Assembly: GCF_001646785.1 (NCBI RefSeq)
Contig: NZ_LRRH01000002.1
Location: 1 to 64,000, forward strand
Direction: 5' to 3'
Length of the DNA: 64,000 nt
DNA from: Rhodococcus phenolicus
Lineage (GTDB): Bacteria > Actinomycetota > Actinomycetes > Mycobacteriales > Mycobacteriaceae
The position numbers and the translations under genes were made by a program. Positions 1-30,674 of the stretch are shown here, in pieces; within the stretch, counting starts at the first letter, position 1, and each line of letters opens with the position of its first letter. Below the pieces are notes generated by a model that saw only the letters and a program-made list of their open reading frames with translations, was not told where the DNA came from and searched no databases.

Positions 1-878
1 AGATCGACGCGGTGTTCGACGTGTCCGGCTTCGTCTTCAGCGACGAATGGGAACACCTCGACCTGCGGCGGCGTGCCGACGACCTGATCCGATGGTCGGA
101 GCGAGGTGTCCCGGTCGTGCTGCTCCCGCAGGCGTTCGGTCCGTTCCGGAACGTGACCGCGCCGGTCTCGGACCTGCTGGACACCTGTGAGCTCGTCTAT
201 GCCCGCGACCCGGATTCCGCAACGTTCCTGAAGGGCATTGCCCGGTCGGCGGACGCATACGAGAAGATCTCGGTGGCAACGGACTTCACGACGATTCTGA
301 CACCGGAGGAACCGCACGGCACGGCGCACCTGCGCGGGATGGTCCCGATCGTCGCGAACTGGAACATCGCGAAACGCGCTGCGGTGCATGGCGGGTCGAA
401 GGACGCATACCTGCGGAATCTGGAGGAGGTGGTGCGGGTCGTGCGTGCACACGGCCACGAGGTGTACGGGCTGTGCCACGAAGGGGGTGGTGACGCCGAA
501 CTGCTCCGCGCACTCGCCGACCGGTGCGGCAGCCTGCAGGTGGTCGAGGGACTCGACGGCAGGCAGTCGAAGTGGCTTCTGGGGCAGGCACCGTTCATCG
601 TGTCCGGCCGCTTCCACGCGCTGGTGAGCGCACTGAGCCAGGGCGTGCCCGGGCTGGTGCACGGATGGAGCCACAAGTACCGGTGGCTCTCCGACGAATA
701 CGGCGTGTCGGATTTCGTGCTGGACCCCTACGAGAATCCCGGCACCGTGGAGGCGACCGTGGGCGCGCGGCTCGGGGAGATCGAGGCCGTCAGGAAGTCC
801 GTGGCCGAGCTCGCGACCGCGAAGAAGGCGGAGACCGAGCAGATGTGGTCCGACGTCGAGAAGCGCATCGAACTCTGA
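1..878 (+). CDS. Polysaccharide pyruvyl transferase family protein, 5'-truncated
   Basis: The frame is open from the first base and ends at a TGA at 876-878, so this is the C-terminal ~290 residues of a longer protein; the GTG at 12 is an internal Val, not the start. The sequence begins with a 'DAVFDVSGFVFSD' segment, then 'LPQAFGPF', and near the end 'SGRFHALVSALSQGVP' and 'HGWSHKYRWL'. This pattern is typical of the polysaccharide pyruvyl transferase (CsaB/WcaK-like) family, which adds ketal-linked pyruvate to surface sugars. The family call is from recognition of these blocks and the substrate is unknown. It converges on the DUF4012 gene across a 119-bp gap holding two hairpins. Together with DUF4012 and the downstream Wzz/tyrosine kinase it suggests a cell-surface polysaccharide locus. 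Confidence 0.8.
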   Translation, partial: IDAVFDVSGFVFSDEWEHLDLRRRADDLIRWSERGVPVVLLPQAFGPFRNVTAPVSDLLDTCELVYARDPDSATFLKGIARSADAYEKISVATDFTTILTPEEPHGTAHLRGMVPIVANWNIAKRAAVHGGSKDAYLRNLEEVVRVVRAHGHEVYGLCHEGGGDAELLRALADRCGSLQVVEGLDGRQSKWLLGQAPFIVSGRFHALVSALSQGVPGLVHGWSHKYRWLSDEYGVSDFVLDPYENPGTVEATVGARLGEIEAVRKSVAELATAKKAETEQMWSDVEKRIEL

Positions 879-2836: not shown

Positions 2837-3053
2837 GCGTTCACAACCCCTTTCAGGATTTCCGTTCGAGACCATAACCGAATTTCGAATTGGCTGTTCG
2901 TTCAAGTGGTGTCGGAGGCCGACGGTCAGTACACTTGCGAACTATCGGTCGTCGACGTTGTTGGGAGGCTTCGTCGCGATCTCGGTTGGGGAGGTCTCTT
3001 CGTGGTTCTTCTCGTCCGTGGTGAGTTGTTGTCGGGCGATGTGAGGGAGGACA
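2837..3053. promoter_or_regulatory. Divergent intergenic region between DUF4012 and NRPS1
   Basis: This 217-bp stretch must carry the start signals of both flanking genes. It is visibly less GC-rich around 2868-2910, including a TTCGAA-centred patch. I could not place a convincing -35/-10 pair for either direction. The NRPS1 ribosome-binding site GAGGGAGG occupies 3043-3050. Confidence 0.4.
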
Positions 3054-6000
3054 GTGCGTCGTACTCCGCTGTCTTCGGTACAGCGCGGTCTCTGGTTCGC
3101 CCAGGAACTGCTTCCGGAGGTCCCGTTCACCATCGCCCAATATGTGGAACTGAGAGGCGATCTCGATACACCATTGATCCGCAAGGCCTGTGAGCAGGCC
3201 GCACGCGATGTGGAGTCGGGTTTCCTCTTCCTCGAGGACGTCGGAGGGCAGCCGTATCAGACGGTCCGGGTGGATGCCCCCGATTCCGTCGGTTTCGTCG
3301 ACCTTCGCGGATCCGAAGACCCGGAGGGCGATGCCCATCGGTGGATGGAGGCCAGGTACTCCCGGCGGCACGATCCGATGCGCGACAGGCTCATCGGCAC
3401 CACGGTGCTGCAGCTGGCCGACGACCGGTTCTTCCTGTCGAGCCACGTCCACCACATCGCACTCGACGGACACGGCGCCATGGTCATGCTCGAGCGCAGC
3501 GCAGAGCTGTACACCGCCTGGGCCTGCGGTGACGAACCGCCACCTGTGCGCAGTCTGCCGGTCGATCGTCTGACCGAACTCGACGCCGCCTACCGGACTT
3601 CGGAGCGGAGGCTACGCGACCGGGAGCACTGGGCGCCGCGACTCGCCGATCTGCCCACCCCGGTCTCCCTCGCCGACGGGTCGGCGCCGCCCCGGGTGCC
3701 GTGCCGGCACACCGGCGCGTCACTCGAACCGTCGGTGGCCGAGGCGGTCGCCGCACTCGCGTCCGAGGCGAACTCGACGGATGTGCCGGTGGTCGTCGCG
3801 GCGTTCGCCGCCTTCCTGGCGAGAACGACCGGGACATCCGATGTGGTGCTGAGCCTTCCCGTCTCCGCCAGGACCACCGCGGCGCTGCGCCGGTCCGGTG
3901 GGGCGCTGTCCAATGTCGTTCCGCTTCGACTGTTCGTGCACCCCGCGTGCACACCCACCGAACTGATCCGCCAGGTTCAGCTGGAACTGACGGGTGCGCT
4001 GCGCCACCAGCGGTACCGGTACGAGGACATGCTGGCGGATCTCCGCGAACTCGGACGGGAGCACCGCGAGGTCCGCAGCGCGTTCGGGCCGGTCGTCAAT
4101 CTCATGATGTTCCATCCGCAGATCAGCTTCGGTGACATCGTCGGTGACTTCCACGTGCAGTCCACAGGGCCGATCGACGATCTGTCGGTCAACGTCTATC
4201 CGGGAATCGCGGGCCGCACCGTCCGGGTCGATTTCGAAGCCAATCCCGCTCTGTACAGCGAGGACTCGCTCGTCCGGCATCACCGCAGGTTCGTCGATCA
4301 CCTGGCCTGTTTCGTCACGGAGCCGAACTGCGCGGTGGGGGATCTTCCGTTCACGGATGCGGCGGACCCCGCCGGTCCGGTTCCCACCGACGGTTCCGGC
4401 GCGGCCGAACCGGCATTGCTGCCGGAACTGCTCACTGCGCACGCCGGCAGCGACGCCGTGGCGGTGCGCGACGGGACGTCGTCCCTCACCTACCGAGAAC
4501 TCGATGTCCGTTCGGACGAGCTGGCGTGCCGGCTCATCGCGGCCGGCGCAGGACCCGAGGACCGGGTCGCGGTCCTCCTCCACCGGTCGATCGATTCGGT
4601 GGTCGCGTTGTGGGCGGTCGCCAAGACCGGCGCGGCCTACACCCCGATCGATCCGGATCTGCCAGCCACACGCCTGAGCGAAGTGCTGCGTTCGGTCACG
4701 GTCGCGATCGCGGGGGAGGACACCGACCTGCCCGGGCACGTCGCGGTCGTGTCGCCGTCGATCGGGCCTACCGGCGATGCCGCTGCGGCCGTCGAACCCC
4801 CGCGCGCCCTGCACGTCGACCATCCTGCGTGGGTGATCCACACCTCGGGGTCGACCGGCGTCCCGAAGGCGGTCGCGGTGACCCACCGCGGCGTGGCGTC
4901 CCTCGTCGCGACCCTGCGCGAGAAGTACCGGGCCGATCGCGAGTCCCGCGTGCTGCATCTCGCCGCGCCCACGTTCGATGCGTCCCTGCAGGAACTGCTG
5001 CTCGCCTTCGACGTCGGCGCGACCGCGGTGATCTGCCCTTCCGATGCGGTGGCCGGTCCCCCGCTGGCGGATCTGCTCCGCCGCGAGGCGATCACGCACG
5101 CGATCACGGCACCCGCGATCCTGTCCGTCACGCCGGAGACGGGTCTGCCCGGCCTCCGGGTCGTCGACTCGGGTGGGGAGGCACTGCCTCAGGCCGTCGC
5201 CGATCGCTGGTCCGTCGGCAGAGTGCTGCTCAACGCGTACGGGCCCACCGAGACGACCGTGCTCGCAACGCTGAGCGAGCCGCTGCAGCCGGGTGCCGGT
5301 GTGCCGATCGGCCGGCCGATCCACGGGACGGCAGCCCACGTCCTCGACTCCAGGCTCCACCCGGTGCCGGCCGGTGTCGTGGGCGAGCTGTACCTCGCGG
5401 GACCGTCGGTCGCCCGTGGCTATCTCGACGCGCCGGCGCTCACCGCCGAGCGGTTCGTGGCGGGACCGGGCGGGGAGCGGATATACCGGACGGGCGATCG
5501 GGTGCGCTGGACCAGCGAGCCCGGCACGGCCGAGTTCCGCCTCGAATTCCTCGGTCGCGCAGACCGTCAGGTGCAGATCCGTGGCAGGCGGATCGAACCG
5601 GGCGAAATCGAAACGGTCCTCGCCTCGTTCGCGGACATCGCGGCGGCGGTGGTCGTCGTGCGCGGCGATCGTCTCGACGCCTACGTGGTGGGCGAGGAAG
5701 CGGCGGCCGTCGACGTGGCCGACGTGACGGCGCGGCTGGCTCAGCGCCTGCCCGTACATCTCAGGCCGGCGACGACGACGGTTCTGGGCACGCTGCCGTT
5801 GACTCCCGGCGGCAAGGTCGATCGGCGGGCGTTACCTGTTCCCGCCGTCGAACCCGATGCAGGAAACCGGCTGCCGACGGGACCGGACGAAGTGCTGGTG
5901 GCCCGACTGTTCACCGAGCGCACCGGCGCGGTGGACGTGGGAGCGGACACCGACTTCTTCGCCGTCGGCGGACATTCGCTCACCGCAACGCAACTCGCGT

Positions 6001-9000
6001 CGGACCTGACCGCCGCTCTCGGCCGTGACATCCGGCTGCGAGACGTGTTCGAACATCCGACCGTGTCCCGGTTGGCCGCCGCCGCAACCGGACGACCCGT
6101 CGTGGTCCCGGCCGAGCGCCGGAGCGCCGAAGCGGACGATGCGCATCCCGATCCGGGGCCGCTGGCGCCCGCACAGTACCGGCTGTGGCTGCAGGCGCGG
6201 GCCCAGCGTGACACCAGCGCGTACCACCTGCCGTTCGCGTTGCAGCTCGACGGCGACCTCGATGTGCCGGCGCTCCGGATCGCGCTGGGCGACGTGGTGA
6301 TTCGACACCGTGTGCTGCGCACCGTCTTCCCGGCGTCACCGCTCGGCCCGGTGCAACGGGTTCTGCCCGTGATCGAAGCGCTGACCGCCTTCGACATCGT
6401 CCCGGTCCCGGCCGCACCGGACGATGTGGAGGCGATGATCCGGCAGTGGACCGCCCTGCCGTTCGATCTCGCCGTCGACGTGCCGGTGCGGATCCGGTTG
6501 CTGCAGACGGGTCCGGACCGTCACGTGCTCGTCGTCGTCGCGCACCACATCGCGCTCGACGGGGCGTCGTTCGTCCCGCTGACCGCGGACCTCGCCGCCG
6601 CCTACGTCGCCCGGTGCCACGGCGATGCCCCGCGCTGGGAGCCCTTGCCCCTGCACTACCTCGACCACGCCCGCGCCCACCGGGAGCTTCTCGGCGACCC
6701 TGCCGATCCGGCCGGTCTCGCGTACCGGGAACTCGAGTACTGGACCGGTGCCCTGGCCGGACTCGAATCCGCACCCGCGGTGCCCACCGACCACCCGCGC
6801 ACGGGGGAGCCCGGGCCCGCCGCCGCCGTCCCGTTCAGCGTTCCCGCTTCGCACGTCGCCGCGTTGCGCGGCGTCGCGGCCCGCCACGACGCGACGACGT
6901 TCATGGCCGTCCACGCCGCTGTCGCCGTGTGGCTGTCCGCGTGGACGGGCGAACGCGACGTCGTGATCGGCACCGGCGTCGCCGGCCGCGACCATCCGGA
7001 CCTCGCCGGCCTCGTCGGCATGTTCGTCGGAACCGTGGCGTTGCGGGTGACCGTCGATCCCGAAGCCGCGTTCGCCGCACTCCTCGCCGACGTCCGGACC
7101 GCCGACATCGACGGATTCGCGCACGCGAGTGTGCCGTTCGATCAGGTCGTCGAGAAACTCGGATTCGGTCCGTTCGCGGTGATGCTGAGTTACGACAACA
7201 TTCCGCCGACCACTCCGGTTCTCCCCGGACTCGACGTGCAGGTGCGGGAATTCGATTCGGTGCGTGCCCGTTTCGACCTCGAACTCCAGATCCGGGAAAC
7301 CGGCGACGGGTCGCTCACCGGACGGCTCGTCTACGACAGCTCCCTGTTCGAACCGGCGACCGCCGCGCGGTGGGTGGAGCGGCTGGGCACCGTGATCGCG
7401 TCGGTGGCCGGCGACCGTACGACCGCCGTCGGTGACATCGACCTCGGTGCCGTACCCGTTGTGCTCGCGCCCTCCGGCCCGGTCGCGACGCTGGCGCACC
7501 TGCTCGGCGGCAGCCCGGCGCGGGTGGCGGCGCCCGGACACGACCCCGTCGAGATCCACTCCGCGGCACGCCCGATGGCGTGGGAGCTGCTGCACCGCGG
7601 GATCGGGCCGGAAGACCGGGTCGCGGTGCTGCTGCCACGGTCGGTGCAGTCGGTGCTCGCGACCGCCGCGGTCGCGCTGACCGGAGCCGTGTTCGTACCC
7701 GTCGACGTCCACCAGCCCGCCGCCCGGATCGCGCAATTGCTCACCGCCGCCGGGGTCGGGCACGTGATCGCCGAGCCGGGCACTCCGGTTCCCGCAGGGA
7801 TCGAGACGATTTCCTTCGTCACGGACGGTTGCGTGCGCGAGATCACTGACGCCGACCGGACACGTCCGCTGCATCCCGATCAGGCCGCCTATCTCGTGTA
7901 CACCTCGGGTTCGACCGGACGCCCCAAGGGCGTCGTGGTCACCCACCGGGGGCTCGCGCCGCTGGCGCGGTCGCTGGTCGGGCGTTTCCGCCTGGCCCCG
8001 GACGCGCGGGTGCTCCATTTCGCGGCGCCCGCGTTCGACGCGTCCGTGCTCGAGTACCTGCTCGCGCTCGCGTCCGGCGGAACGCTCGTCGTCGCACCCG
8101 CCGACGTGTTCGGCGGCGATGAACTCCTGGAACTTCTTCGCGCCGAACGGATCACGCACTGGTTCTCGACCCCGTCGGTGCCGGCGCGGCTCGACCCGGA
8201 CGGTCTCGACGATCTGCGTGTCCTCGCCGTCGGGGGCGAGGCATGGCAGCCCGAGACCGCGGCCCGCTGGGCGCCGGGCCGCACCATGCTCAACGTCTAC
8301 GGACCCACGGAGACCACCGTCCTGGCGACCGCCGGCTCACCGCTGGCCCCGGGTGAGCCGCTGAACCTCGGAACCGGGCTCGAAGGGGTCACCCCGATCG
8401 TGCTGGACCGGCGTCTGCGCCCCGTCCCGGTCGGCGTCACCGGCGAGCTGTACCTGATCGGAGCCGGGCTCGCCCGCGGTTATCTGGATGCCCCCGTCCA
8501 GACCGCGGAACGCTTCCCGGCCGCGCCCTTCGGCGGCGGGCGCATGTACCGCACGGGTGACCTCGTCCGCTGGACTCTTCCGCCGGCCGCCGAAAACCCG
8601 GACCCTGTACTCGAATTCGTCGGGCGCGCGGACCATCAGGTCAAGATCCGGGGCTTCCGCATCGAACCGGGGGAGATCGATGCCGTCCTCACCACGCATC
8701 CCGCGGTCACCACAGCCGTCACCGTCGCGCACGACGGGAAACTGGCAGCGTTCGTGTACGGTTCCGGCGATCGTCTCGACGCGACGGCGATCCGGCAGTA
8801 CGCCGCGACGCGGCTGCCGCGACACATGGTGCCGACGACCGTCACCGTGCTCGACGAGGTGCCGCTGACCGCGACCGGCAAGATCGACCGGGCCGCTCTC
8901 CCGGTGGCGGATGCCGCGGCAACACCGGCCGGCGACGGATACCGCACCGTCACCGAGCATCTCGTCGCGACGGTCGTCGCCGACGTGCTCGGCCTGGCCG

Positions 9001-12000
9001 CCGTCGCCCCGTCCGACGACTTCTTCGCTCTCGGCGGCAACTCCCTGCTCGCCACCCAGCTGGCCGCTCGGCTCGCGGGCATCGTCGACCGCCGTGTCGG
9101 CGTACGGGAAATCCTCGAGAACCCGGTCGTCGCCGACCTCGCCGACGCGATCACGCACACCGAAGCGGAGCGGCGCATCCCGCTGACGCACGAGGTCGCC
9201 GACGGCCCGCAACCGCTCGCCCCCGCGCAGCAGCGCATGTGGCTGGTCAACCGCTTCGACCTCGCCACCGGCATCGGCGGCGACCACATCGCGTTCGTCG
9301 CCGAACTCGACGAGAGCGTCGACCTCGACGCACTGACCGCGGCCACCGCCGACGTCGTCGGGCGGCACGCCACGCTGCGGACCGTTCATCCGGACGGACC
9401 GGACGGCCCGTACCGGCGCGAACTCCCGGCGATCACGCTCGACCTCACCCCGGTCGGCGCGCCCGCCGACCTCGACGACGAGATCGCCGACTTCGCCCGG
9501 TGCCCGTTCGACCTCACCGTCGCACCGCCGGTCCGCACCCGCCTCTACCGCAACGGCAACCGGTACACCCTGGCCGTGGTGCTGCATCACATCGCCGCCG
9601 ACGGGCTGTCCCTGCTGCCCCTCGGGCGCGACGCCGTCACCGCCTACACCGCCCGCCGTGAGGGGACCATCCCGACTTGGCCGGCACTCCCGGTCACCTA
9701 TTCGGACTACGCGCGCTGGCAGCACCGGATGCTCGGCGCCCCCACCGACCCCGACGGTCTGGGCGCACGGCAGCTCGCGTACTGGAAGCGCACCCTCGAC
9801 GGTGCGTCCCCGCTGCTTCCGCTGCCCACCGACCGTCCCCGGACCGCGGGGGACATCCACGCGGACCGGATCACATTCGCTGTCCCCGCCGACGTGCACG
9901 CCGCTGTCGACGAACTCGCCCGCGCGCACGACGTCACGCCGTTCATGGTCGTGCACGCCGCCCTGGCGGTCCTGCTCGCGGCGCTCGCCGCGAGCGACGA
10001 CGTGATCGTCGGTACTCCGGTCTCCGGACGCACGGACGCGGCGCTCGACGACGTCGTCGGCATGTTCGTCGGTACCGTCCCGTTGCGGCTGAGGATCGAT
10101 CCGCGCGGCACGTTCGCCGAGTTGCTGGCCGAGACGCGCCGCGTCGATCTCGATGCGTTCGCCCACGCCGAAGTCCCGTTCGACCGCATCGTCGACGCGG
10201 TGGGAGTGTCTGCGGCCGAGCATCATCCGTTGTTCCGGGTCATTCTCGCGTACGAGTCCTTCGACACCGGTGCCCGAGCGATTCCGGGCCTGGCGACGGT
10301 GCGGGAGCTCGCGTCGGACACCGCGCGGGTGGACGTGGAGATCACCCTGCGCGAGACGTTCTCCGACGCCGGGGCAGCGGCGGGACTGGATGGGACGCTG
10401 ACCTATGCGAGCGGCCTGTTCGACAGCGGAACCGTCACGACGTGGGTGTCGTGGCTGCGGCGCATCCTCGACATGGTGACCTCGGACCCGGAGACGACCG
10501 TCGGTGCCGTCGATCCGGTCGGCCCCACCCCGGCATCGGAACCGGTATCGGAACCCGTCCCGCACGCGGACGCCCGGTCGCTGTCCGAGCTGTTCGTCCG
10601 CCGCGCCGCCGCGGCGCCGGACGCGGTCGCCGTCGCCGACGGCGACACCGCCCTGACCTACGCCCAGCTGCGGGCGCGATCGGGTGCGCTGGCGGCACGG
10701 CTCGCCGAGCGGGGGATCGGACCCGAGGACGTGGTCGCGGTCGCATTGCCCCGCAGCGTCGACCTGATCGTCGCGATCGTCGCGGTCGCCCGGTGTGGTG
10801 CGGTGTACCTGCCGGTCGACATCACCCATCCCGAGGCCCGGCTGCGGTCGCTGTTCGACGACGCTGAACCCGTTTCGGTGCTGTGCCGGAGCGATTTCCG
10901 TGCCGCCGGGGACATTCCCGCTCTCGACCCCGCAACCGTCCCGGTGCAGGACCGGGCGGCCGCGGACGACGACCACGACGTGCCGGCCGACCCGGATCGG
11001 GGCGCCTACCTCATCTACACCTCGGGCTCCACCGGAACTCCCAAGGGAGTGCTCGTCAGCCACCGCAGCGCGCTGAGCGTCTTCGCCGCGACCACATCGC
11101 GCTTCGGATTCGACGAATCGGACGTGTGGACGATGTTCCACTCTCCGGCCTTCGACTTCTCCGTGTGGGAGATGTGGGGTGCCCTCGTCACCGGCGGGCG
11201 GCTCGTCGTCGTCGACCATGCGACGGTCCGGGATCCGGCCGGGTTCGCCGCGCTGCTCGGTGAGCACGGGGTCACCGTGCTCAACCAGACGCCGACCGCG
11301 TTCCACCAGCTGAGTGCCACCGCGGCGCTGCCCGACTCGGTGCGGCTCGTGATCTTCGGCGGGGAGCCGCTCGATGCCGAGCGTGTCCGCTCGTGGCAGT
11401 GGAAGCAGCCGCAGATCGAGACGGTGAACATGTACGGCATCACCGAGACCGCCGTGCACGCCACGTGCGGTCCGGCTGCCGTCCCGGGTGTGGGCGAGCC
11501 GCTCCCCGGCATCGGGATGCAACTGCTCGACCGGTACCTGCGCCCGGTACTTCCCGGCAGCACCGGCGAGATCTACGTCACCGGAAAGCAACTCGCCCGC
11601 GGCTATCGGGGGCGTCCGGGTCTGACGGCCACTCGGTTCGTCGCCGCGCCGGGCGGTGCACGCCGTTACCGGAGCGGAGATCTGGGCCGCAGAGCCGGGA
11701 ACACCGTGCATCATCTCGGGCGCGCCGATCAGCAGATCGTCCTGCGGGGCTACCGCATCGAACCCGGGGAGATCGAAGCGGCGCTGCTGCGCTGCCCGGG
11801 CGTCACCGACGCCGCGGTGATCCTGCGCGACGACCGGCTCGTCGCCTATCTCGTAGGCGGATCCGCCGCCGATGCGCTGCACGAGGTTCGTCGAACGCTG
11901 CCCGACCATCTGGTCCCGTCCGCCGCCGTCGTGCTCGATGCACTGCCGCTCACCGGAAACGGAAAGCTCGATCGTGCGTCGCTGCCGGAGCCGGTGGTCG

Positions 12001-18000: not shown

Positions 18001-21000
18001 TCGCCGCGCGTCTGTCCGAAGCGTTCGCGACGGATGTGCCCACCCGCGCCGTACTGGAAGCGCCGAGCCTGATCGCACTCGCGGGGTCCGTCACCGACGG
18101 TCCGGCGCCGCGGCCACCGCTGCGTCGCGCCGACACGACCGGACCGGTGCCGATCGCGCCGGCGCAGCGACGACTGTGGCTGCTGTCGCGCACCGAACCC
18201 GACGCGCGCTACATCGTTCCGGTGGTCCTGCGCCTGACCGGTGCTCTCGACGCCGATGCCCTGGATGCGGCGGTCCGTGACCTGTGCGATCGTCACGAGA
18301 TCCTGCGCACCGCATATCCGGACGGTGAGTACGCCTTGGTCGAACCGGCTGTGCTGGAGAGGATCTCGTGTGCCGACCCCGATCCTGCGGTCACGGAGAC
18401 GCTCTCCGCTCCGTTCGACCTCGGCTGCGAACCTCCGCTGCGTGTCCGGCTGCTCGACATCGCTCCGGGGGAGAGCATCCTCGTCGCCGCGGTCCACCAC
18501 ATCGCGTTCGACGGAGGGTCGGTCGCCCCGTTGCTGTCCGACCTGCAGGCCGCCTACGTGGCGCGCGCCGGCGGCACGGCTCCGGCGTTTGAGCCGCTGC
18601 CGGTGACCTACCGCGACTACGCCCGCTGGCAGCACACCTTCCTCGGAGACCCCACGGACCCGGACTCGCCGGCGCACCGCCAGCTCGATTACTGGGCGGC
18701 GGCACTGGCAGGGGCGCCCGGCACCCCGCTGCCCCTGCCCACCGACCGGCCCAGGCCGTCCCGCCCGAGCTACCGCGGCGGAACGACCGCCGTACACCTC
18801 GACGCGCAGTTCCACACCCGGTTGCGCACGGTCGCCCGGGCCCACGACGTCACCATCTTCATGCTGCTCCATGCGATCCTCGCGGCGCTGCTCGCCCGTC
18901 GCAGCGGCCGATCGGACATCGTCGTCGGCACGGCGGTCGCGGGACGCGACGATCCGCGTCTGTCCGCGCTCGTCGGCATGTTCGTCGGTACCGTCGCGCT
19001 GCGCACCCCCGTCGATCCGTCCACCGCCGTCGCGGATCTGCTGCGCGACGTGCGGGCCGCGGACCTCGGGGCGCTCGCCCACGCCGATGTCCCCTTCGAG
19101 CAGGTCGTCGAGCGGCTCGCCCCGAACCGCGACGGTGCACACCATCCGCTGTTCCAGGTGATGCTGACCCACCGCCCCGGCGGGGCCGGCGATCCGCTGC
19201 TCCAGCTGCCGGGGGTCGACATCGGCGACACCGAAATGGGTTCCTTCCCTGCGCTGTTCGATCTCTCCTGGGAAATCGTCGAGCACACCACCGGGGACGG
19301 TGGCGCCGGCCTCGACGTGCGGGTGGTGTACGCCACCGACCTCTTCGACGCAGCCACCGTCGACGGTCTGCTCGCGGAGTATGTGAGGTTGCTGGACGCG
19401 GCCCTGGCCACGCCCGGACGGCCCGTCGGCGACCTCGCGGTTCCCGACGCCCGACCGCTCGGCACGGCCGAGGTGACGCCGCGAACGCTCCGGGACCTGC
19501 TGGCCGGGACGGTGGCCGCGCATCCTCACCGGATCGCGGTGCAGGCCGGACCGGTCGCGTGGACCTATGCCGAACTCGACGCGCGTGCCACCCGGATCGC
19601 ATCGGAACTCGCGGGCCGCGGAGTGGGCCGGGGCGACCTCGTCGCCGTCGCGGTACCGCGCAGCGAGTACTGGCCCCTCGCCCTCTGGGCGGTCACGAAG
19701 GCCGGCGCAGCCTGGGTGTCCTTGGACGTGAGCCAGCCCCGCGCGCGGATCGAGACGATCCTGGCGGACTGCGGCGCGACCTTCGGTCTCACCGTGCCGC
19801 ACGGGCTCGACGACGACGAATACGGTCGCGGGACCGTCGAGTGGATCGACCTGACCGGTTCGCACTCCCGCTCCGGGCGACCGGAACCGGAGCAGTCGGT
19901 GGATGAGCTGGCGTACGTGATCTACACCTCCGGGACGACCGGCACCCCGAAAGGTGTCGCCGTCCCGCATCGCGGACTCACCGCACTCGTCGACGTGCAG
20001 GCCCGGCGGCTCGGACTTCGCCCCGGAACCCGTGTACTGCAGGCGATCTCGACCACGTTCGACGCCGCGATCCTCACCGTGCTCGGTGCCCACGCCCACG
20101 GCGGCACACTGGTGATCGCCGACGACGACACCATCGCCGGCCCGGCCCTGCAGAACCTCCTGGTCGAGTCGCGCATCGACCACCTCGATCTCACCCCGAC
20201 GGTCCTCGCCACCCTCGACCCCGATGCGCTCCGGCCGGTCACAGTGGTCGCCGGCGGCGAGACCCTGCATCCGGCGCTCCTCCGGCGTTGGTCGCGGCAC
20301 CGGATCTTCAACGGTTACGGACCGACCGAGTTCACCGTCATGGTCTCGTGTGCCGGACCACTGACCGATACCACGGCGAAACCGGCTGTCGGCCTCCCCG
20401 TCGCGGGCGCGACCGCCTACGTCCTCGACGCGAGACTGCACCCGGTGTCGCCCGGAACGGTGGGGGAGCTGTACATCACCGGCGCCGGGCTCGCGCGCGG
20501 GTACCATCGCCGGACCGGTCTCACCGCAACACGTTTCGTGGCCGATCCGTTCGGAAAGCCCGGAAGTCGGCTGTATCGCACCGGAGATCTGGTGCGTGTC
20601 ACGGCAACCGGGGAACTCGACCACCTCGGACGGGACGACGACCAGGTGCAGATCCGCGGCATCCGCACCGAGCCCGCCGAGGTCGACGCGGTGCTGCTCA
20701 CCGCCGACGGCGTCGATGCGGCGGTCACCGTTGCGATCCCCGGTGCCGACGGAACCCTCTGCCTCGCTTCCTATGTCCAGGGTCGTCCCGACCTGCCGGG
20801 GCTGCGCCGACAGCTCGCCTCGCAGCTTCCGCGCCACCTGCGCCCGGCCACCGTCACCGTCGTCGACGCGCTGCCGATGCTGCCGTCGGGCAAGGTCGAT
20901 CGGGCGGCGCTGCCCGCCCCGGACACGGCAGGGTCCACGGAAGCGTACGTACCGCCGAGCGGACCGACCGGGCAACTCGTCGCGGCCGTCTACGCCCGGC

Positions 21001-21977
21001 ACCTCGACATCCCGGTCACCGCGGTCTCGGCCGATCACGGATTCTTCGACCTCGGGGGAAGCTCGCTCGGTGCCGTCACGGTCGCGGGGGAGCTGTCCGA
21101 GGCACTCGGACGCCGGGTGCCGGTCGGCTGGCTGGTCGACGCCCGGACCGTCGACGACCTGGCCCGGCGGATCGATTCCGGCGTGGACCCGGACGGCGTC
21201 GCGGCTCCGGCCACCGATCCCCTCGCGGTGCTGGTTCCCCTCGGCACCGGTGATCCGGAGGCGCGGCCCCTGTTCTGTGTGCATCCGATCAGCGGATTGG
21301 CGTGGTGCTACAGCGGTCTGGCGGCACATCTGGACGGCGCATCCGTGTACGGTTTGCAGGCGGTCGGGCTCGACCCGATTCCCGGCTCGATCCCCGAACT
21401 CGCCGCGCGGTACGTCGACCGGATCCGGGCCGTCCAGCCGGACGGCCCGTACCACCTGCTCGGATGGTCCGCCGGTGGCACGATCGCGCACGAGATGGCG
21501 GTCCAGCTGCGTGAAGCCGGACAGCGTGTCGCGTTGCTCGCGCTGCTCGACACGTTCACGCCGGAAACGATGCCGGACGTGACCGAACCCGCGTACGGCG
21601 AGGTCGAGATCGACACCGGCGGCCTCCCGGACGATCTCGTCGCCCGTGTCCGCAGACGCGCCGACACCGCCGCGGTGACCGTCGAAACCGGGTTGCGCCA
21701 TCACACACCCCGCGTCCACGACGGCGCGGTCCATCTCTTCGTGGCCGAGTCCGAACGGCGGGATTCCGCCGCACTCGTCGCCGCGTGGAGCCGGTACACG
21801 ACCGGCGATGTGGTCGATCATCCACTGCCGTTCGCACATTCGGATCTGACGGTGCCGGAAGCACTCCGCCGGATCGGACCCGTGCTGGTGCAGCACGGGG
21901 AATTTCGCAGCAACTACCACCAATTCGCGCCCACCGGGCGTAGCAGCAGTGTCATCGGAACGAGGGAGACGCCCTGA
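3054..21977 (+). CDS. Six-module nonribosomal peptide synthetase with terminal thioesterase (NRPS1)
   Basis: A 6,307-aa NRPS organised as six C-A-T modules plus a type I thioesterase. The GTG start at 3054 follows GAGGGAGG (3043-3050). Phosphopantetheine Ser residues are near 975, 1997, 3028, 4034, 4977 and 6004. The C active-site motifs are HHIALDG (133), HHIALDG (~1164), HHIAADG (~2179), HHIAADE (3207), DHSLADG (4203) and HHIAFDG (~5148). The TE nucleophile lies in GWSAGG (Ser ~6139). The enzyme starts with a C domain, so the first residue is probably N-acylated, as in lipopeptides (inference). There is no epimerisation domain. Pocket residues read by eye are DFWNIGMVHK for A3, a threonine-type code; the other A domains (A1 DAQTDGAVLK, A2 DALSAGVVLK, A4 DALLMGGVFK, A5 DALSAGAIVK, A6 DALLVGGVMK) are unassigned. 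A2 has a degenerate A1 motif and A5 lacks the normal A2 motif and has PKQ in place of PKG. The stop overlaps the start of the Wzz/kinase gene, implying coupled translation. Confidence 0.95.
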   Translation: MRRTPLSSVQRGLWFAQELLPEVPFTIAQYVELRGDLDTPLIRKACEQAARDVESGFLFLEDVGGQPYQTVRVDAPDSVGFVDLRGSEDPEGDAHRWMEARYSRRHDPMRDRLIGTTVLQLADDRFFLSSHVHHIALDGHGAMVMLERSAELYTAWACGDEPPPVRSLPVDRLTELDAAYRTSERRLRDREHWAPRLADLPTPVSLADGSAPPRVPCRHTGASLEPSVAEAVAALASEANSTDVPVVVAAFAAFLARTTGTSDVVLSLPVSARTTAALRRSGGALSNVVPLRLFVHPACTPTELIRQVQLELTGALRHQRYRYEDMLADLRELGREHREVRSAFGPVVNLMMFHPQISFGDIVGDFHVQSTGPIDDLSVNVYPGIAGRTVRVDFEANPALYSEDSLVRHHRRFVDHLACFVTEPNCAVGDLPFTDAADPAGPVPTDGSGAAEPALLPELLTAHAGSDAVAVRDGTSSLTYRELDVRSDELACRLIAAGAGPEDRVAVLLHRSIDSVVALWAVAKTGAAYTPIDPDLPATRLSEVLRSVTVAIAGEDTDLPGHVAVVSPSIGPTGDAAAAVEPPRALHVDHPAWVIHTSGSTGVPKAVAVTHRGVASLVATLREKYRADRESRVLHLAAPTFDASLQELLLAFDVGATAVICPSDAVAGPPLADLLRREAITHAITAPAILSVTPETGLPGLRVVDSGGEALPQAVADRWSVGRVLLNAYGPTETTVLATLSEPLQPGAGVPIGRPIHGTAAHVLDSRLHPVPAGVVGELYLAGPSVARGYLDAPALTAERFVAGPGGERIYRTGDRVRWTSEPGTAEFRLEFLGRADRQVQIRGRRIEPGEIETVLASFADIAAAVVVVRGDRLDAYVVGEEAAAVDVADVTARLAQRLPVHLRPATTTVLGTLPLTPGGKVDRRALPVPAVEPDAGNRLPTGPDEVLVARLFTERTGAVDVGADTDFFAVGGHSLTATQLASDLTAALGRDIRLRDVFEHPTVSRLAAAATGRPVVVPAERRSAEADDAHPDPGPLAPAQYRLWLQARAQRDTSAYHLPFALQLDGDLDVPALRIALGDVVIRHRVLRTVFPASPLGPVQRVLPVIEALTAFDIVPVPAAPDDVEAMIRQWTALPFDLAVDVPVRIRLLQTGPDRHVLVVVAHHIALDGASFVPLTADLAAAYVARCHGDAPRWEPLPLHYLDHARAHRELLGDPADPAGLAYRELEYWTGALAGLESAPAVPTDHPRTGEPGPAAAVPFSVPASHVAALRGVAARHDATTFMAVHAAVAVWLSAWTGERDVVIGTGVAGRDHPDLAGLVGMFVGTVALRVTVDPEAAFAALLADVRTADIDGFAHASVPFDQVVEKLGFGPFAVMLSYDNIPPTTPVLPGLDVQVREFDSVRARFDLELQIRETGDGSLTGRLVYDSSLFEPATAARWVERLGTVIASVAGDRTTAVGDIDLGAVPVVLAPSGPVATLAHLLGGSPARVAAPGHDPVEIHSAARPMAWELLHRGIGPEDRVAVLLPRSVQSVLATAAVALTGAVFVPVDVHQPAARIAQLLTAAGVGHVIAEPGTPVPAGIETISFVTDGCVREITDADRTRPLHPDQAAYLVYTSGSTGRPKGVVVTHRGLAPLARSLVGRFRLAPDARVLHFAAPAFDASVLEYLLALASGGTLVVAPADVFGGDELLELLRAERITHWFSTPSVPARLDPDGLDDLRVLAVGGEAWQPETAARWAPGRTMLNVYGPTETTVLATAGSPLAPGEPLNLGTGLEGVTPIVLDRRLRPVPVGVTGELYLIGAGLARGYLDAPVQTAERFPAAPFGGGRMYRTGDLVRWTLPPAAENPDPVLEFVGRADHQVKIRGFRIEPGEIDAVLTTHPAVTTAVTVAHDGKLAAFVYGSGDRLDATAIRQYAATRLPRHMVPTTVTVLDEVPLTATGKIDRAALPVADAAATPAGDGYRTVTEHLVATVVADVLGLAAVAPSDDFFALGGNSLLATQLAARLAGIVDRRVGVREILENPVVADLADAITHTEAERRIPLTHEVADGPQPLAPAQQRMWLVNRFDLATGIGGDHIAFVAELDESVDLDALTAATADVVGRHATLRTVHPDGPDGPYRRELPAITLDLTPVGAPADLDDEIADFARCPFDLTVAPPVRTRLYRNGNRYTLAVVLHHIAADGLSLLPLGRDAVTAYTARREGTIPTWPALPVTYSDYARWQHRMLGAPTDPDGLGARQLAYWKRTLDGASPLLPLPTDRPRTAGDIHADRITFAVPADVHAAVDELARAHDVTPFMVVHAALAVLLAALAASDDVIVGTPVSGRTDAALDDVVGMFVGTVPLRLRIDPRGTFAELLAETRRVDLDAFAHAEVPFDRIVDAVGVSAAEHHPLFRVILAYESFDTGARAIPGLATVRELASDTARVDVEITLRETFSDAGAAAGLDGTLTYASGLFDSGTVTTWVSWLRRILDMVTSDPETTVGAVDPVGPTPASEPVSEPVPHADARSLSELFVRRAAAAPDAVAVADGDTALTYAQLRARSGALAARLAERGIGPEDVVAVALPRSVDLIVAIVAVARCGAVYLPVDITHPEARLRSLFDDAEPVSVLCRSDFRAAGDIPALDPATVPVQDRAAADDDHDVPADPDRGAYLIYTSGSTGTPKGVLVSHRSALSVFAATTSRFGFDESDVWTMFHSPAFDFSVWEMWGALVTGGRLVVVDHATVRDPAGFAALLGEHGVTVLNQTPTAFHQLSATAALPDSVRLVIFGGEPLDAERVRSWQWKQPQIETVNMYGITETAVHATCGPAAVPGVGEPLPGIGMQLLDRYLRPVLPGSTGEIYVTGKQLARGYRGRPGLTATRFVAAPGGARRYRSGDLGRRAGNTVHHLGRADQQIVLRGYRIEPGEIEAALLRCPGVTDAAVILRDDRLVAYLVGGSAADALHEVRRTLPDHLVPSAAVVLDALPLTGNGKLDRASLPEPVVVSAGGRAPHGPIEEVVADTFGELLRDNGSEVALGADDNFFHLGGNSLLANRLAGRLVGIVDADITVRDIFEAPTVAALAERIAERAGRPIARIPLTAADGDNAPLSPAQRRLWFVNRFDPQSAAYNLPFVLSLDGRLDADALAAAVADVLERHRTLRTIYPDATRQEISPVPHPVLEAIAVAESECAHEIREFCSAGFDLTVERPVRIRLLRLAPERHLLVVVAHHIAADEWSLAPLLRDLAAAYTARVGGQRPQFPPLPVQYTDFARWQHAIADDQIEHWLRVLADLPDEATLPGDRPHPVRPSGRAAVRRLRLDRDLSDRLVRLGRDRHATVFMVVHAALAALIARHGAGRDIPIGTVVAGRGDPRLDDVVGMFAGTLVLRTRVEPGMRFAELLAHVRAVDLDAYTHPDAPFETLVERLDPPRIPGRHPLFQVALSHRRSTVGDVCLPGLTATVTPAPDEHAKFDVQVTVTEDAAELELEFACAADLYDDETVSAFAARLEAILHAAAGDPDVQIDDIDLFSVGEGAAPARAVGPAAPRPQSLWRLFVAGAARAGDAVAVRDGSRELTYPRLIERAEDIAARLWAAGARTGDVVACALPRSLDAVVAAWGIARLGAAPMFVDPAQPPARLAGMLDAVAHGVAGQQDSLPATVRWIGVPAAGADTTGLAGLPEPHPDSPAYLVFTSGTTGNPKGVAVGHRAVTALAADLADRFAAGPGDRVLHVAAPSFDAAVLELLVAGASGATLVVAGPDSYGGADLGELLARERITHACLTPSALASVPARALPDLRVLMLGGETVAGDLVDRWGAGRDLYNGYGPAEATVFATCSAALIPGDVPVIGNPVRGVAVAVLDDRLQPVPVGVVGELYLSGERLAVGYRGAPARTAQRFVATDHGRMYRTGDRARWRRDGTLEYRGRSDSQVKLRGVRIEPGEVDAALRRVAGVEQAATVVRDGSLVSYVVPADLDTGRVRSQLSGTLPGHLIPAVVVALAALPVTPHGKLDAAALPAPVRRGDAPRTETEMLVARVCADVLGGAGPVGRSDDFFTIGGNSLLATVLVGRLREETGIAVPLRAVFDHPTVHDLAAVLDAGGFDVDAGPVAVMPRPSRIPLSRAQRRLWGLDQLNPGAYRLRAEVRLGGRLDPETLDAAIGDVVDRHEILRTRYVPTGTDIHQEASARRPDTTRLLESGRVPAPTAESAGPIRVELERLEENLHVLHLDVDHSLADGASLRPLLADLADAYLARAAGHAPRWLPLPLQYADYAIWEHARGIPAADIDHWKQALDGLTVTELPVDRTGEDAVAGTIEFAVPGTVREAVASLARAHGATEFMVVHAALSVLLARVGDQHDVAIAAVVSTRRWAQLDDLVGPFVETLVLRAAVAPDRSFTELLATVRAFDVAALDHATVPYEQITGMLSGPRPQVALAMQDFDPGRVQFGDISIEAREIPDDTPKFDLQFTLAPGVDGYRATLRFDRSRFADDTAQALVRRFTAALTGLVAAPADPVGDVRLDAPAAPLTGDVPAAPHTLSDLLRAAAAAHPDREALRGDGISLTYRELDAASDALAAEWRAAGIGPGTVVRLGDTRSAGRIRDLWAATKTGAAFTGSTGIAATCPANVAYVVATSGSTGTPKQVAVTHTGLAPLAAEAATRYRVGPGDRVLQGYHPAFDAALLEVLLAHTTGATLVVAPPDVYAGPELHRLLREERITHYLSTPTVLGTLEPAGLHDLRVVASGGETLPAGIAERWVADRLLLDAYGPTESTIVATLTEFEGGHGADRTEGGIGRPVPGTTAHVLDTRLQPVPVGAVGELYLMGAGLALGYLDAAPLTAERFVAAPGGQRMYRTGDRVQQRTDGTLAYLGRTDRQLKIRGVRIEPGELETALLAAPGVRQAAVAAIDGALVAFAAATGTTVDDLTATVAATVPSHRMPARIRVVDQLPVTANGKLDLAALTELDSAAVAFDDRALTPGEKLVVTIAEDVLGARPAAHLGFIAAGGDSLGAVVLAARLSEAFATDVPTRAVLEAPSLIALAGSVTDGPAPRPPLRRADTTGPVPIAPAQRRLWLLSRTEPDARYIVPVVLRLTGALDADALDAAVRDLCDRHEILRTAYPDGEYALVEPAVLERISCADPDPAVTETLSAPFDLGCEPPLRVRLLDIAPGESILVAAVHHIAFDGGSVAPLLSDLQAAYVARAGGTAPAFEPLPVTYRDYARWQHTFLGDPTDPDSPAHRQLDYWAAALAGAPGTPLPLPTDRPRPSRPSYRGGTTAVHLDAQFHTRLRTVARAHDVTIFMLLHAILAALLARRSGRSDIVVGTAVAGRDDPRLSALVGMFVGTVALRTPVDPSTAVADLLRDVRAADLGALAHADVPFEQVVERLAPNRDGAHHPLFQVMLTHRPGGAGDPLLQLPGVDIGDTEMGSFPALFDLSWEIVEHTTGDGGAGLDVRVVYATDLFDAATVDGLLAEYVRLLDAALATPGRPVGDLAVPDARPLGTAEVTPRTLRDLLAGTVAAHPHRIAVQAGPVAWTYAELDARATRIASELAGRGVGRGDLVAVAVPRSEYWPLALWAVTKAGAAWVSLDVSQPRARIETILADCGATFGLTVPHGLDDDEYGRGTVEWIDLTGSHSRSGRPEPEQSVDELAYVIYTSGTTGTPKGVAVPHRGLTALVDVQARRLGLRPGTRVLQAISTTFDAAILTVLGAHAHGGTLVIADDDTIAGPALQNLLVESRIDHLDLTPTVLATLDPDALRPVTVVAGGETLHPALLRRWSRHRIFNGYGPTEFTVMVSCAGPLTDTTAKPAVGLPVAGATAYVLDARLHPVSPGTVGELYITGAGLARGYHRRTGLTATRFVADPFGKPGSRLYRTGDLVRVTATGELDHLGRDDDQVQIRGIRTEPAEVDAVLLTADGVDAAVTVAIPGADGTLCLASYVQGRPDLPGLRRQLASQLPRHLRPATVTVVDALPMLPSGKVDRAALPAPDTAGSTEAYVPPSGPTGQLVAAVYARHLDIPVTAVSADHGFFDLGGSSLGAVTVAGELSEALGRRVPVGWLVDARTVDDLARRIDSGVDPDGVAAPATDPLAVLVPLGTGDPEARPLFCVHPISGLAWCYSGLAAHLDGASVYGLQAVGLDPIPGSIPELAARYVDRIRAVQPDGPYHLLGWSAGGTIAHEMAVQLREAGQRVALLALLDTFTPETMPDVTEPAYGEVEIDTGGLPDDLVARVRRRADTAAVTVETGLRHHTPRVHDGAVHLFVAESERRDSAALVAAWSRYTTGDVVDHPLPFAHSDLTVPEALRRIGPVLVQHGEFRSNYHQFAPTGRSSSVIGTRETP

Positions 21978-23542
21978 TGGAAGTACACGACTATCTGCGA
22001 ATTCTGCAGACACGATGGAAGATCGTGGCTGTGACGTCCGCGGTGGTGCTGCTCGGAGCGCTCGGCGCTTCGCTGCTGGCCACCCCGCAGTACCAGGCAT
22101 CGACGAGGCTGTTCGTGTCGACATCGTCCGGCGCATCGGTCAGCGAGATCTACCAGGGCAATCGCTTCTCGCAGGAGCGCGTGGCCTCCTATACCAAATT
22201 GCTCACGGGCACCACACTCGCGCAGCGCACCCTCGACAGCCTCGGGATCACCGATGTGACCCCGGCCGAGCTCGCGGGGAAGGTGAAGGCGTCGTCGGCG
22301 CCGGACACGGTGCTCATCGATGCCACGGTCACGGACACGTCGCCGGAACGCGCCCGCGATCTGGCGAACGTGCTGTCCGACGAGTTCGTGGCCATGGCAC
22401 GCGAACTGGAGACCCCCGAGAACGGAGGGTCCCCCGCCGCGCGCGTCGTGGTCGAGCAGCACGCCACCACGCCGTCGACGGCGGTGTCGCCGAACACGAA
22501 ACGCAATGCGGCGTTGGGTCTTCTGGTCGGCCTGCTGCTCGGGATCGGCGCGGCGGTCCTGCGTGACCGTCTCGACAACACGGTCAAGGACCGCAAGACC
22601 GCCGAGGACATCGCGGGTGCCGGCCTGGTCGGAACGATCCCGCTCGACAAGGCACGCCAGGAGACAGCGGCGATCGTGTTCCGCGACGCGAACTCCGGCA
22701 GTGCCGAGGCATATCGTGAGATGCGGACCAATCTGCAGTTCCTCGACGTGGACAACCCGCCGCGGGTCCTGGTTCTCACCAGCGCGTTGCCGTCCGAAGG
22801 CAAGACCACCACGGCCATCAACACCGCCCTCGTGCTGGCCGAGGCCGGACACTCGGTGGTGCTGGTCGAGGGCGACCTGCGTCGGCCGCGGGTCTCGAAG
22901 TACCTCGGTGTGATCGGCGACGCCGGGTTCAGCACGGTGCTGGCCGGCCGGGCCGGGCTCGACGACGTGCTGCAGCCGACCCGCTTCGAGAATCTGACCG
23001 TGCTCGCGGCCGGGGCACTGCCGCCCAATCCGAGCGAGCTTCTCGGCTCCGCCACCGCCAAGCATGTCGTCGAGGATCTCCGTGCGCGATTCGACTACGT
23101 GATCATCGACGCGTCGCCGCTGCTGCCGGTGACCGACGCGGTCGTGCTCAGCGCCGCCGCCGACGGCGCGCTCGTCATCGCCCGGCACGGCAAGACCACA
23201 CGCGATCAGATGGTCCGTGCCGTCGGCAATCTCGACAACGCGGGCGTGCGGGTGCTCGGCACCATCATCACCATGGCGCCGTCGAAGGGACCCGGTGCCT
23301 ACGAGTACCGGTACTACTACGAGTCCGACGATGCCGCGACGAAGTCCGTGCCGGCCGCCGTGAACGTCGCGCCTCCGGAACCCGCACCGGTTCCGGCGCA
23401 CAACGGTGCCCACAGCCGCCCGGTCCCGGCGTACTCGGTCGCGCCGAGTTATCCGGAGGTGGTGACTCCTCGCCCGGGTGAGCGGCCGCGCGTGCAGGCA
23501 CGGCTGCGGCCGCCGAGCGAGAACTCAGACGTGGAGTCGTGA
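21977..23542 (+). CDS. Wzz/BY-type tyrosine autokinase (polysaccharide chain-length regulator fused to tyrosine kinase)
   Basis: A 521-aa membrane protein combining a Wzz-type chain-length domain with a cytoplasmic bacterial tyrosine kinase. Two transmembrane helices lie near residues 16-36 and 177-195 and bracket an extracytoplasmic Wzz loop. The kinase has a Walker A motif, SALPSEGKTTT (Lys276), a Walker A' block 'VVLVEGDLRRP' at about 300 and a Walker B 'VIIDASP' at about 376. The C-terminal region has a tyrosine cluster at 442-448 (five Tyr in seven residues), the usual autophosphorylation site, then a Pro-rich tail. BY-kinases control polymerisation and export of capsule or exopolysaccharide together with a cognate phosphatase, which is present just downstream on the other strand. 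The ATG at 21977 overlaps the NRPS1 stop (TGATG), with AGGGAGA at 21963-21969 inside the NRPS end. An NRPS partner is unexpected for this family. Confidence 0.92.
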   Translation: MEVHDYLRILQTRWKIVAVTSAVVLLGALGASLLATPQYQASTRLFVSTSSGASVSEIYQGNRFSQERVASYTKLLTGTTLAQRTLDSLGITDVTPAELAGKVKASSAPDTVLIDATVTDTSPERARDLANVLSDEFVAMARELETPENGGSPAARVVVEQHATTPSTAVSPNTKRNAALGLLVGLLLGIGAAVLRDRLDNTVKDRKTAEDIAGAGLVGTIPLDKARQETAAIVFRDANSGSAEAYREMRTNLQFLDVDNPPRVLVLTSALPSEGKTTTAINTALVLAEAGHSVVLVEGDLRRPRVSKYLGVIGDAGFSTVLAGRAGLDDVLQPTRFENLTVLAAGALPPNPSELLGSATAKHVVEDLRARFDYVIIDASPLLPVTDAVVLSAAADGALVIARHGKTTRDQMVRAVGNLDNAGVRVLGTIITMAPSKGPGAYEYRYYYESDDAATKSVPAAVNVAPPEPAPVPAHNGAHSRPVPAYSVAPSYPEVVTPRPGERPRVQARLRPPSENSDVES

Positions 23543-24040
23543 CAGGAGCGGAAACAGAAGGTCCGCGATCTCGGTTCCGACCGTCGCGAAGGTCTCTTCG
23601 TCCCGTCCCATCGGATCGGTGATGTCGTCCGGCCCGGGTGCAGTGTTCTGCACCCGGGCCGCCGTCAGTTCTGCGACGGTCGAGGCGCCACTGGCCTGCT
23701 GGACCCGAGCGGCCTCTCGAAGTGTGAACGTCACCCGCATCATTCGCGGCGCCGCGGTGATCACCGCGGACCGGTGCCGGCGGGACATGGTGAGGACGAG
23801 ATCGGCGTCCTCCGCGATGTTCGGCGTCAGCCGGCGGGCGGCGAACCCCACCGGGTCGCCACCGAGCTGCTGCAGCACCTCCGCGGCCGTCGGCTCCATC
23901 CCGTGACCGACCAGTGCCCGCGTTCCGGCACTGTGGGCCGTGAGATCCGCTCGACCGGACTCCGCCGCGTACGCCGCCGTCAGTAGTTCGGCCGTGGGTG
24001 ACCGGCAGATGTTTCCCGTGCACACGAAGAGGACGCGCAT
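23525..24040 (-). CDS. Low-molecular-weight protein tyrosine phosphatase
   Basis: A 171-aa cytoplasmic phosphatase of the LMW-PTP (Wzb/PtpA) family. The catalytic loop VCTGNICRSP is right at the N-terminus (C-x5-R-S), and the general-acid Asp lies in 'DDITDPMGRDEETF' near the C-terminus. These enzymes dephosphorylate BY-kinases, and the convergent kinase gene is the obvious substrate. Its 3' end overlaps the 3' end of the kinase gene by 18 bp. The ATG at 24040 is preferred over the in-frame TTG at 24043 because it puts the catalytic loop at the usual distance from the start. Confidence 0.92.
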   Translation of the reverse strand: MRVLFVCTGNICRSPTAELLTAAYAAESGRADLTAHSAGTRALVGHGMEPTAAEVLQQLGGDPVGFAARRLTPNIAEDADLVLTMSRRHRSAVITAAPRMMRVTFTLREAARVQQASGASTVAELTAARVQNTAPGPDDITDPMGRDEETFATVGTEIADLLFPLLSRLHV

Positions 24041-24110
24041 CAACCGATCCTATGCGCCGCGGCCCCGGACGCCGACCCGTGCAGAACGACCGTCCGGAAT
24101 CACCTGGTTG

Positions 24111-30619: not shown

Positions 30620-30674
30620 TCCTGGTCACACGGATGCGCAGCGTCCGTCTCGGGGTGGACGGCGGGGGTTGGAT

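Follow-up and report, generated by a model that had tools for sequence, protein, structure and literature searches.

A nonribosomal peptide synthetase gene overlapping a Wzz/tyrosine kinase gene in a predicted surface-polysaccharide locus of Rhodococcus

The window analyzed here is the first 64 kb of the 89-kb contig C85 from a Rhodococcus genome close to R. zopfii. In it, the gene of a six-module nonribosomal peptide synthetase (NRPS), designated NRPS1, overlaps by one base the gene of a fused Wzz/bacterial tyrosine kinase (BY-kinase), and this overlap recurs in the genus. With modest confidence, we lean toward regarding the region as a Mycobacteriales locus for a surface polysaccharide of the Wzx type that has gained a synthetase of an N-acylated peptide beside the Wzz/BY-kinase and a DUF4012 protein. 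The genes and other features of the locus are as follows.

1..878, + strand: polysaccharide pyruvyl transferase (PF04230, E 2.4e-12), 5' end lost at the contig start
998..2905, - strand: DUF4012 gene (PF13196, E 8.5e-47), divergent from NRPS1; its TTG start is uncertain
2906..3053, no strand: divergent leader with genus-conserved blocks; GGGAGG precedes the GTG at 3054
3054..21977, + strand: NRPS1, with a starter-type condensation (C) domain, six modules of C, adenylation (A) and peptidyl carrier protein (PCP) domains, a predicted Thr code in module 3 and a terminal thioesterase (TE)
21960..21979, + strand: junction, GAGGGAG within the last NRPS1 codons followed by TGATG
21977..23542, + strand: Wzz and BY-kinase domains fused in one protein; Walker A, A' and B motifs, tyrosines clustered at 442-448
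23525..24043, - strand: low-molecular-weight (LMW) protein tyrosine phosphatase (PF01451, E 6e-23), convergent with the kinase gene, the 3' ends of the two sharing 18 bp

The NRPS1-kinase junction

NRPS1 was found to extend from the GTG at 3054 to the TGA at 21975-21977 (6307 aa), and the kinase ATG starts at 21977 on the A of this stop codon (TGATG), so that the overlap described in an earlier note on this DNA was borne out. At E 1e-60 or better, the kinase was detected in all but one of 18 same-genus genomes; the exception, G016, likewise lacks a DUF4012 match. All 17 kinases displayed the one-base overlap in the form of TGATG or TAATG, and the upstream context was an intact NRPS frame in 13, an interrupted NRPS in two and a deletion scar in the remaining two. 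Inside the last NRPS codons, GAGGGAG was present in 16 of these 17 genomes and AAGGGAG in G007. Judged from the sequences, such recurrence of the overlap is more than chance. The TE region of NRPS1 (last 399 residues as query, E 1e-70 or better) was located in 14 of the 18 genomes, in each case directly before the kinase, and 13 of the 14 carried an NRPS frame of 6216-6359 aa. In G001 the frame was just 792 aa, an interruption arising from error or decay, and in G009 (75% complete; locus L030 is the same contig) NRPS1 pieces rather than one frame lay upstream of the kinase. A junction unique to this strain, which by the earlier note would refute its reading, is ruled out by the overlap in all 17 same-genus kinases. 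A spurious kinase start was also ruled out, since the Wzz match begins at residue 4 and the first codons are conserved.

The leader blocks at 2906..3053 were conserved in a 13-genome alignment (11 same-genus) and were kept in both genomes from which the NRPS has been deleted, which argues for NRPS1 and the kinase as one unit. The synthetase and the kinase would be made together, because one leader is apparently common to both and the ribosome site of the kinase lies within the last NRPS codons. A promoter and terminator scan found nothing, its consensus being one that leaves out other promoter types. The phosphatase, DUF4012 and pyruvyl transferase genes that had been said to surround the pair are indeed present, with the reservation that the phosphatase gene is convergent and stands outside the presumed operon.

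The kinase is one polypeptide, for which PF02706 (Wzz), PF13614 and TIGR01007 ('polysaccharide biosynthesis tyrosine autokinase') all scored above cut-off, TIGR01007 with 156.7 bits against a cut-off of 108. Together with the Wzz domain, the motifs ALPSEGKT, VVLVEGDLRRP and VIIDASP (Walker A, A' and B) and the C-terminal tyrosines 442, 444, 446, 447 and 448 identify it as a Wzz-domain BY-kinase. Similarly, CTGNICRS at residue 8, a CX5RS signature near the N terminus, and the later DP motif (DPM at 143) mark the neighboring protein as an LMW protein tyrosine phosphatase. The window genome holds a second Wzz-domain gene (G000:C134:18825-19082), with 28% identity to the window kinase.

Natural loss of the synthetase and the polysaccharide setting

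In two same-genus genomes, the distance from the position aligned with the DUF4012 start to the kinase was 643 bp (G012) and 503 bp (G002), as against 19,072 bp in the window. The gap contains sequence aligning with the NRPS start plus NRPS tail codons, in G012 also a TE piece (tblastn E 2e-6), and shows stop codons in all three forward frames. From these remnants of start and tail it follows that the NRPS was lost from a locus once holding it, and that the kinase stayed. The retained kinase (75% identity) has no internal stop, DUF4012 (about 70% identity) has an open frame of 614 aa, the phosphatase aligns at full length with 78-79% identity, and the ribosome site ahead of the kinase as well as a sugar transferase also persist. 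Nothing argues more strongly than these two deletions that the function of the kinase lies elsewhere than with the NRPS, and a kinase dedicated to the NRPS was thereby ruled out. Kinase and DUF4012 neighbors free of NRPS also occur in genus g29 and in the Microbacterium and Mycolicibacterium loci L046, L052 and L049. Since the kinase is present both in the scar genomes and in these NRPS-free loci, its most likely role is in making the polysaccharide.

The earlier note had placed the pair inside a polysaccharide-type locus. Since the sequence upstream of position 1 is unreadable in the window contig, this assignment rests on relatives, in which polysaccharide islands do lie upstream, against the note's second refuting outcome of a flank free of such genes. 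In R. zopfii, the genes before DUF4012 encode a nucleotidyl transferase, an initiating sugar transferase, a UDP-glucose dehydrogenase, a beta-helix protein, a 525-aa protein without a Pfam or NCBIfam match at E 0.001, WecG, a GT2 glycosyltransferase, a Wzx-like flippase, a nitroreductase-family protein and a full pyruvyl transferase (island families PF02397, PF01943, PF03808 and PF00535). This last protein has 382 aa and shares 90% identity with the window protein across the shared part; the truncated gene at the contig edge is the single PF04230 match in the entire window assembly. All ten island genes have relatives at 79-93% in G014. An initiating transferase and a Wzx-like flippase thus belong to the predicted R. 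zopfii island, and the window genome would be expected to have them as well. The beta-helix protein (L193:11367-12869) is right-handed and resembles NosD and pectate-lyase-like epimerases.

Differing islands, with GC content as low as 51-53%, occupy the same place in G013 (dehydrogenase, epimerases, glycosyltransferases and flippase) and G005. The G005 island has an initiating transferase, a dehydrogenase, glycosyltransferases and, close to DUF4012, an IS4-type transposase gene (L109:2792-4042). Genes of relatives were called with a home-made program that was trained on the window and misses genes in low-GC islands. When 25 island proteins were used as baits, none of the 13 regions searched (about 37-100 kb each) was without a match; the matches were weak or few in G268, G008, G007, G012 and G002, and some were not near the kinase. 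As for a Wzy polymerase, the 525-aa protein of R. zopfii could be placed in no family, and Wzy_C in G119 scored 28.8, below the cut-off of 31.7.

For DUF4012, PF13196 was the only family match reported, with no PF03816, and no PDB sequence relative was found at E 1. AlphaFold2 models of its core (residues about 255-475) were built from five sequences and gave a mean pLDDT of 72. In a VIA comparison of the core, rows 1-26, which we take, in part by title, to be LytR-CpsA-Psr (LCP) family entries, had Z scores of 10.5-6.8 and root-mean-square deviations of 4.0-5.6 over 148-183 residues, and the next row had a Z of 3.4. These rows include Cps2A, TagT/U/V and LcpA, some with lipid-linked ligands. 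The best Foldseek match of the core had E 2.4e-4 and was the only one below 0.001. The whole-protein model (pLDDT 66.6) yielded no Foldseek match at 0.001, its top rows being aminopeptidases, and mixed VIA rows with LCP entries among them, so that the isolated core alone gave a clean list. With regard to the catalytic Arg/Asp residues of LCP proteins, R406 sits in a conserved column and would be a candidate. The core is thus modeled as a remote LCP-like fold with putative activity. Passages of two articles (PMC5412050 and PMC6744442) set DUF4012 in capsule or exopolysaccharide loci, the former listing the DUF4012 gene of Bifidobacterium longum 105-A beside wzz in a capsular polysaccharide locus; the word 'LytR' is absent from PMC6744442.

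The predicted peptide, the distribution of the locus and competing explanations

NRPS1 comprises six A domains, six C motifs and a terminal PCP-TE; five PCPs were located by motif search and the first (VGGHSL) by eye. The first C domain (C1) best matched the structures 7c1k, 5du9/4jn3, 6n8e and 5ja1 (by name 7c1k, CDA, ObiF1 and EntF; E 7e-56 to 4e-46), which are presumably starter C domains, and the next match was at 6e-20. With the second C domain as control the ranking was reversed: 5u89 was best (3e-68), 7c1k, 4jn3 and 5du9 followed at 5e-11 to 2e-8, and 6n8e and 5ja1 were not among the matches listed at 1e-5. C1 is therefore assigned, by similarity, to the starter type.

The nine-residue code of module 3, which we take to specify threonine, was read in nine NRPS1 of the genus, as DFWNVGMVH in one and as DFWNIGMVH in the other eight; G161 (module 3) and G230 (module 5) have DFWNIGMVH too. 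From the starter-type C1 and this code, NRPS1 is likely to make an N-acylated peptide, whose acyl group may be fatty or aromatic, in line with the peptide or lipopeptide anticipated in the earlier note. The code of module 5 was DALLAGAIV in all nine and DALLAGAVV in G161, G230 and G268; the predicted identity of residues other than that of module 3 is uncertain. The set of A codes omits one module of G015, several of G027, G119 and G150, and some sequences of NRPS2, the second NRPS in the window.

Across the family, the kinase was present at E 1e-80 or better in 133 of 301 genomes, of which a selection was examined: 16 of 24 kinase-positive genomes in genus g24, 7 of 12 in g10, and five in g6 and three in g29, the smaller part of each. 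Of 147 kinase loci, 80 were retained, so that this sample is capped. In the two further genera g24 and g10, the NRPS ended 51-129 bp ahead of the kinase in 22 of the 23 genomes examined (91-129 bp in 15/16 of g24; 51-77 bp in 7/7 of g10). A second gene order, kinase, NRPS and DUF4012 on the same strand, was found in G027 (g11) and G119 (g19). Their NRPSs begin with a C domain and end with PCP-TE, and the first C domain of G119 matches like C1, as a single domain without an internal control. As called in G119, the NRPS and DUF4012 genes overlap, stop codon on start, and shortly after this pair lie genes of an ABC transporter ATPase and an ABC-2 permease (L204:1779-3535), a candidate exporter. 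By coordinates, DUF4012 lies between kinase and NRPS in G150 (g9), and in G281 (g9) NRPS sequence lies downstream of the kinase. No NRPS was seen in the 38-40 kb covered of G235 and G131, and no NRPS match within 5 kb of the kinase in 22 named actinobacterial loci (L039-L060; three Corynebacterium, one Mycolicibacterium); in C. lubricantis, a weak adenylation match lies at a distance of 6.5 kb.

According to the explanation we favor, NRPS1 would load an acyl group via the starter C domain, join six residues with threonine third and release the product by the TE, and the upstream island would provide for synthesis of the polysaccharide. By analogy with Wzc/Wzb, chain length and export would be set by the kinase and phosphatase, and DUF4012 would, as its modeled fold suggests, probably handle or ligate the undecaprenyl-linked polymer. 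The lipopeptide would be a dispensable envelope or matrix partner; the kinase and phosphatase probably act on the polymer, with lipopeptide and polymer made together.

Several observations weigh against this explanation. The spacers of 51-129 bp outside the genus make the overlap itself genus-specific. R. erythropolis G110, of g24, has two kinases, neither beside an NRPS, and all four R. erythropolis-type loci L033-L036 (one on a G110 contig) had no NRPS match within 10 kb. A kinase-adjacent NRPS was found in just one of the five g6 genomes examined (G268, a 3194-aa frame) and in none of the three of g29, where DUF4012 is directly upstream of the kinase; nor was one adjacent in g2, g4, g18, g21, g27 or g28 (one genome each, with two kinases in g2), NRPS-like sequence in g4 lying 4.2 kb upstream. 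The TE tree, in which L173, L142 and L166 repeat G268, G230 and G161 and from which four of the five other TE regions of the window genome were excluded (motif not found in them), unites the synthetases of g1, g10 and g24 weakly (87/69) and leaves those of G268, G104, G027 and G119 outside this group. Sequence similarity of DUF4012 to LCP proteins is weak, with hhalign probabilities of 14% (E 0.0019) and 0.7%. Among the scanned neighboring window proteins no exporter or acyl-ligase family was recognized, small MbtH-like frames not having been specifically sought, and both the peptide and the polysaccharide of the locus are predictions from genes. As a separate observation, the two kinases of G110 (L161) lie about 15 kb apart in one polysaccharide region, with no DUF4012 match listed in the 38 kb covered.

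Foremost among the rivals, though improbable, is that, in the mycolic-acid envelope, the polysaccharide has the NRPS1 lipopeptide as its acceptor or anchor. The LCP-like DUF4012 would be the ligase, and the link, through the Thr hydroxyl or made by the TE, would give a glycopeptidolipid-like macromolecule. The togetherness of NRPS, kinase and DUF4012 in two gene orders, the modeled core of DUF4012, the Thr code kept in three genera, and the finding that, among the 80 loci of the capped sample, those from other orders have no NRPS match closer than 5 kb to the kinase all fit it. It is countered by the survival of kinase, phosphatase, DUF4012 and sugar transferase in G012 and G002, by the lack of the Thr code in the three modules read of G268, and by the fact that no linkage chemistry is known. 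The fuller version, in which DUF4012 would move the Wzx-exported polymer to the threonine or C-terminus of the acyl-peptide and the Wzz/BY-kinase would set its length, is a shade more doubtful than either this rival or the next. That next rival, with hardly less weight than the anchor itself, supposes that the product of NRPS1 is a secreted lipopeptide in its own right, be it antibiotic, surfactant or siderophore, and that the synthetase and the polysaccharide genes have a genomic address in common and nothing more. The many putative lipopeptide synthetases reported for Rhodococcus genomes (PMC5550956), the dispensability of the NRPS and the ABC exporter genes in G119 speak for such independence. 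Against it stand the TE region, which at E 1e-70 occurred nowhere in the 18 genomes of the genus except beside the kinase, the overlap in every kinase of the genus, the second gene order in other genera and the leader kept after NRPS loss.

The earlier note had instead put peptide assembly or export under tyrosine-kinase control. Direct control by the kinase over the NRPS or the export of its peptide is the least supported reading and very unlikely: adjacency and overlap are all that favor it, whereas G012 and G002 kept kinase, phosphatase and DUF4012 without the NRPS, the kinase matches polysaccharide autokinases, and NRPS-free kinase/DUF4012 neighbors occur in g29, L046, L052 and L049 and, according to the passage of PMC5412050, in B. 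longum. The note's other suggestion, a peptide-decorated surface polymer, may hold.

Elsewhere in the window, NRPS2 (32133-52994) lies between two genes. The one after it encodes a protein like the mycolyltransferase Cmt1 (PDB 4h18, E 7e-86) and would overlap NRPS2 by four bases if it starts at 52991 (its frame is open from 52859); the one before it (30669-31733) is a 75%-identical paralogue of that gene. An NRPS-esterase pair in G230 is spaced 0.1 kb, and in G013 no esterase match was listed by NRPS2, but the stretch covered stops 0.5 kb past it.

Significance and relation to known systems

Several genera keep a lipopeptide synthetase next to an LCP-like protein and the kinase of a polysaccharide locus. 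This offers a testable candidate for how a mycolic-acid envelope holds or passes a polysaccharide, with the natural deletion genomes as controls. The association suggests that a peptide and a sugar coat are made together, and the LCP-like fold offers a working hypothesis for DUF4012, a Pfam family of unknown function found in capsule-type loci. To our knowledge, how capsules or exopolysaccharides are held on or cross the mycolic-acid outer membrane is unresolved; if true, a lipopeptide-anchored polysaccharide would be a new way of holding a capsule in the outer mycomembrane. Among the papers listed from the open-licence PMC literature, at the level of titles and abstract starts, no description of an NRPS beside a polysaccharide tyrosine kinase was found, and the words 'polysaccharide' and 'kinase' are absent from the main text of PMC11433410.

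The locus resembles the Wzc/Wzb and CapAB-type BY-kinase systems in its fused Wzz/BY-kinase with a Tyr cluster and its LMW phosphatase and, in the relatives of the window genome, resembles Wzx/Wzy loci in the initiating sugar transferase, flippase and glycosyltransferases nearby; it differs in the 19-kb NRPS gene that runs into the start of the kinase gene and in the convergent orientation of the phosphatase gene. The capsule locus of B. longum 105-A likewise has DUF4012 beside wzz, but lists no NRPS in the passage of PMC5412050. Starter-C NRPSs are shared with the putative Rhodococcus lipopeptide clusters (Ceniceros et al. 2017, PMC5550956); NRPS1 may be one of the 79 families of that article, in whose main text 'polysaccharide' and 'tyrosine' are absent. 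With LCP ligases, the DUF4012 core has a predicted fold in common, although its sequence similarity to them is near background and any catalytic Arg/Asp set in it would be putative. Mycobacterial glycopeptidolipids, from related organisms, also offer an N-acylated NRPS peptide with Thr in an envelope context, and their synthetase has a terminal reductase giving an amino alcohol. NRPS1, here described from its gene, instead ends in PCP-TE (PF00975, E 1.9e-27) with no reductase, which rules it out as such a synthetase, and is set apart further by the adjacent kinase and the polysaccharide island.

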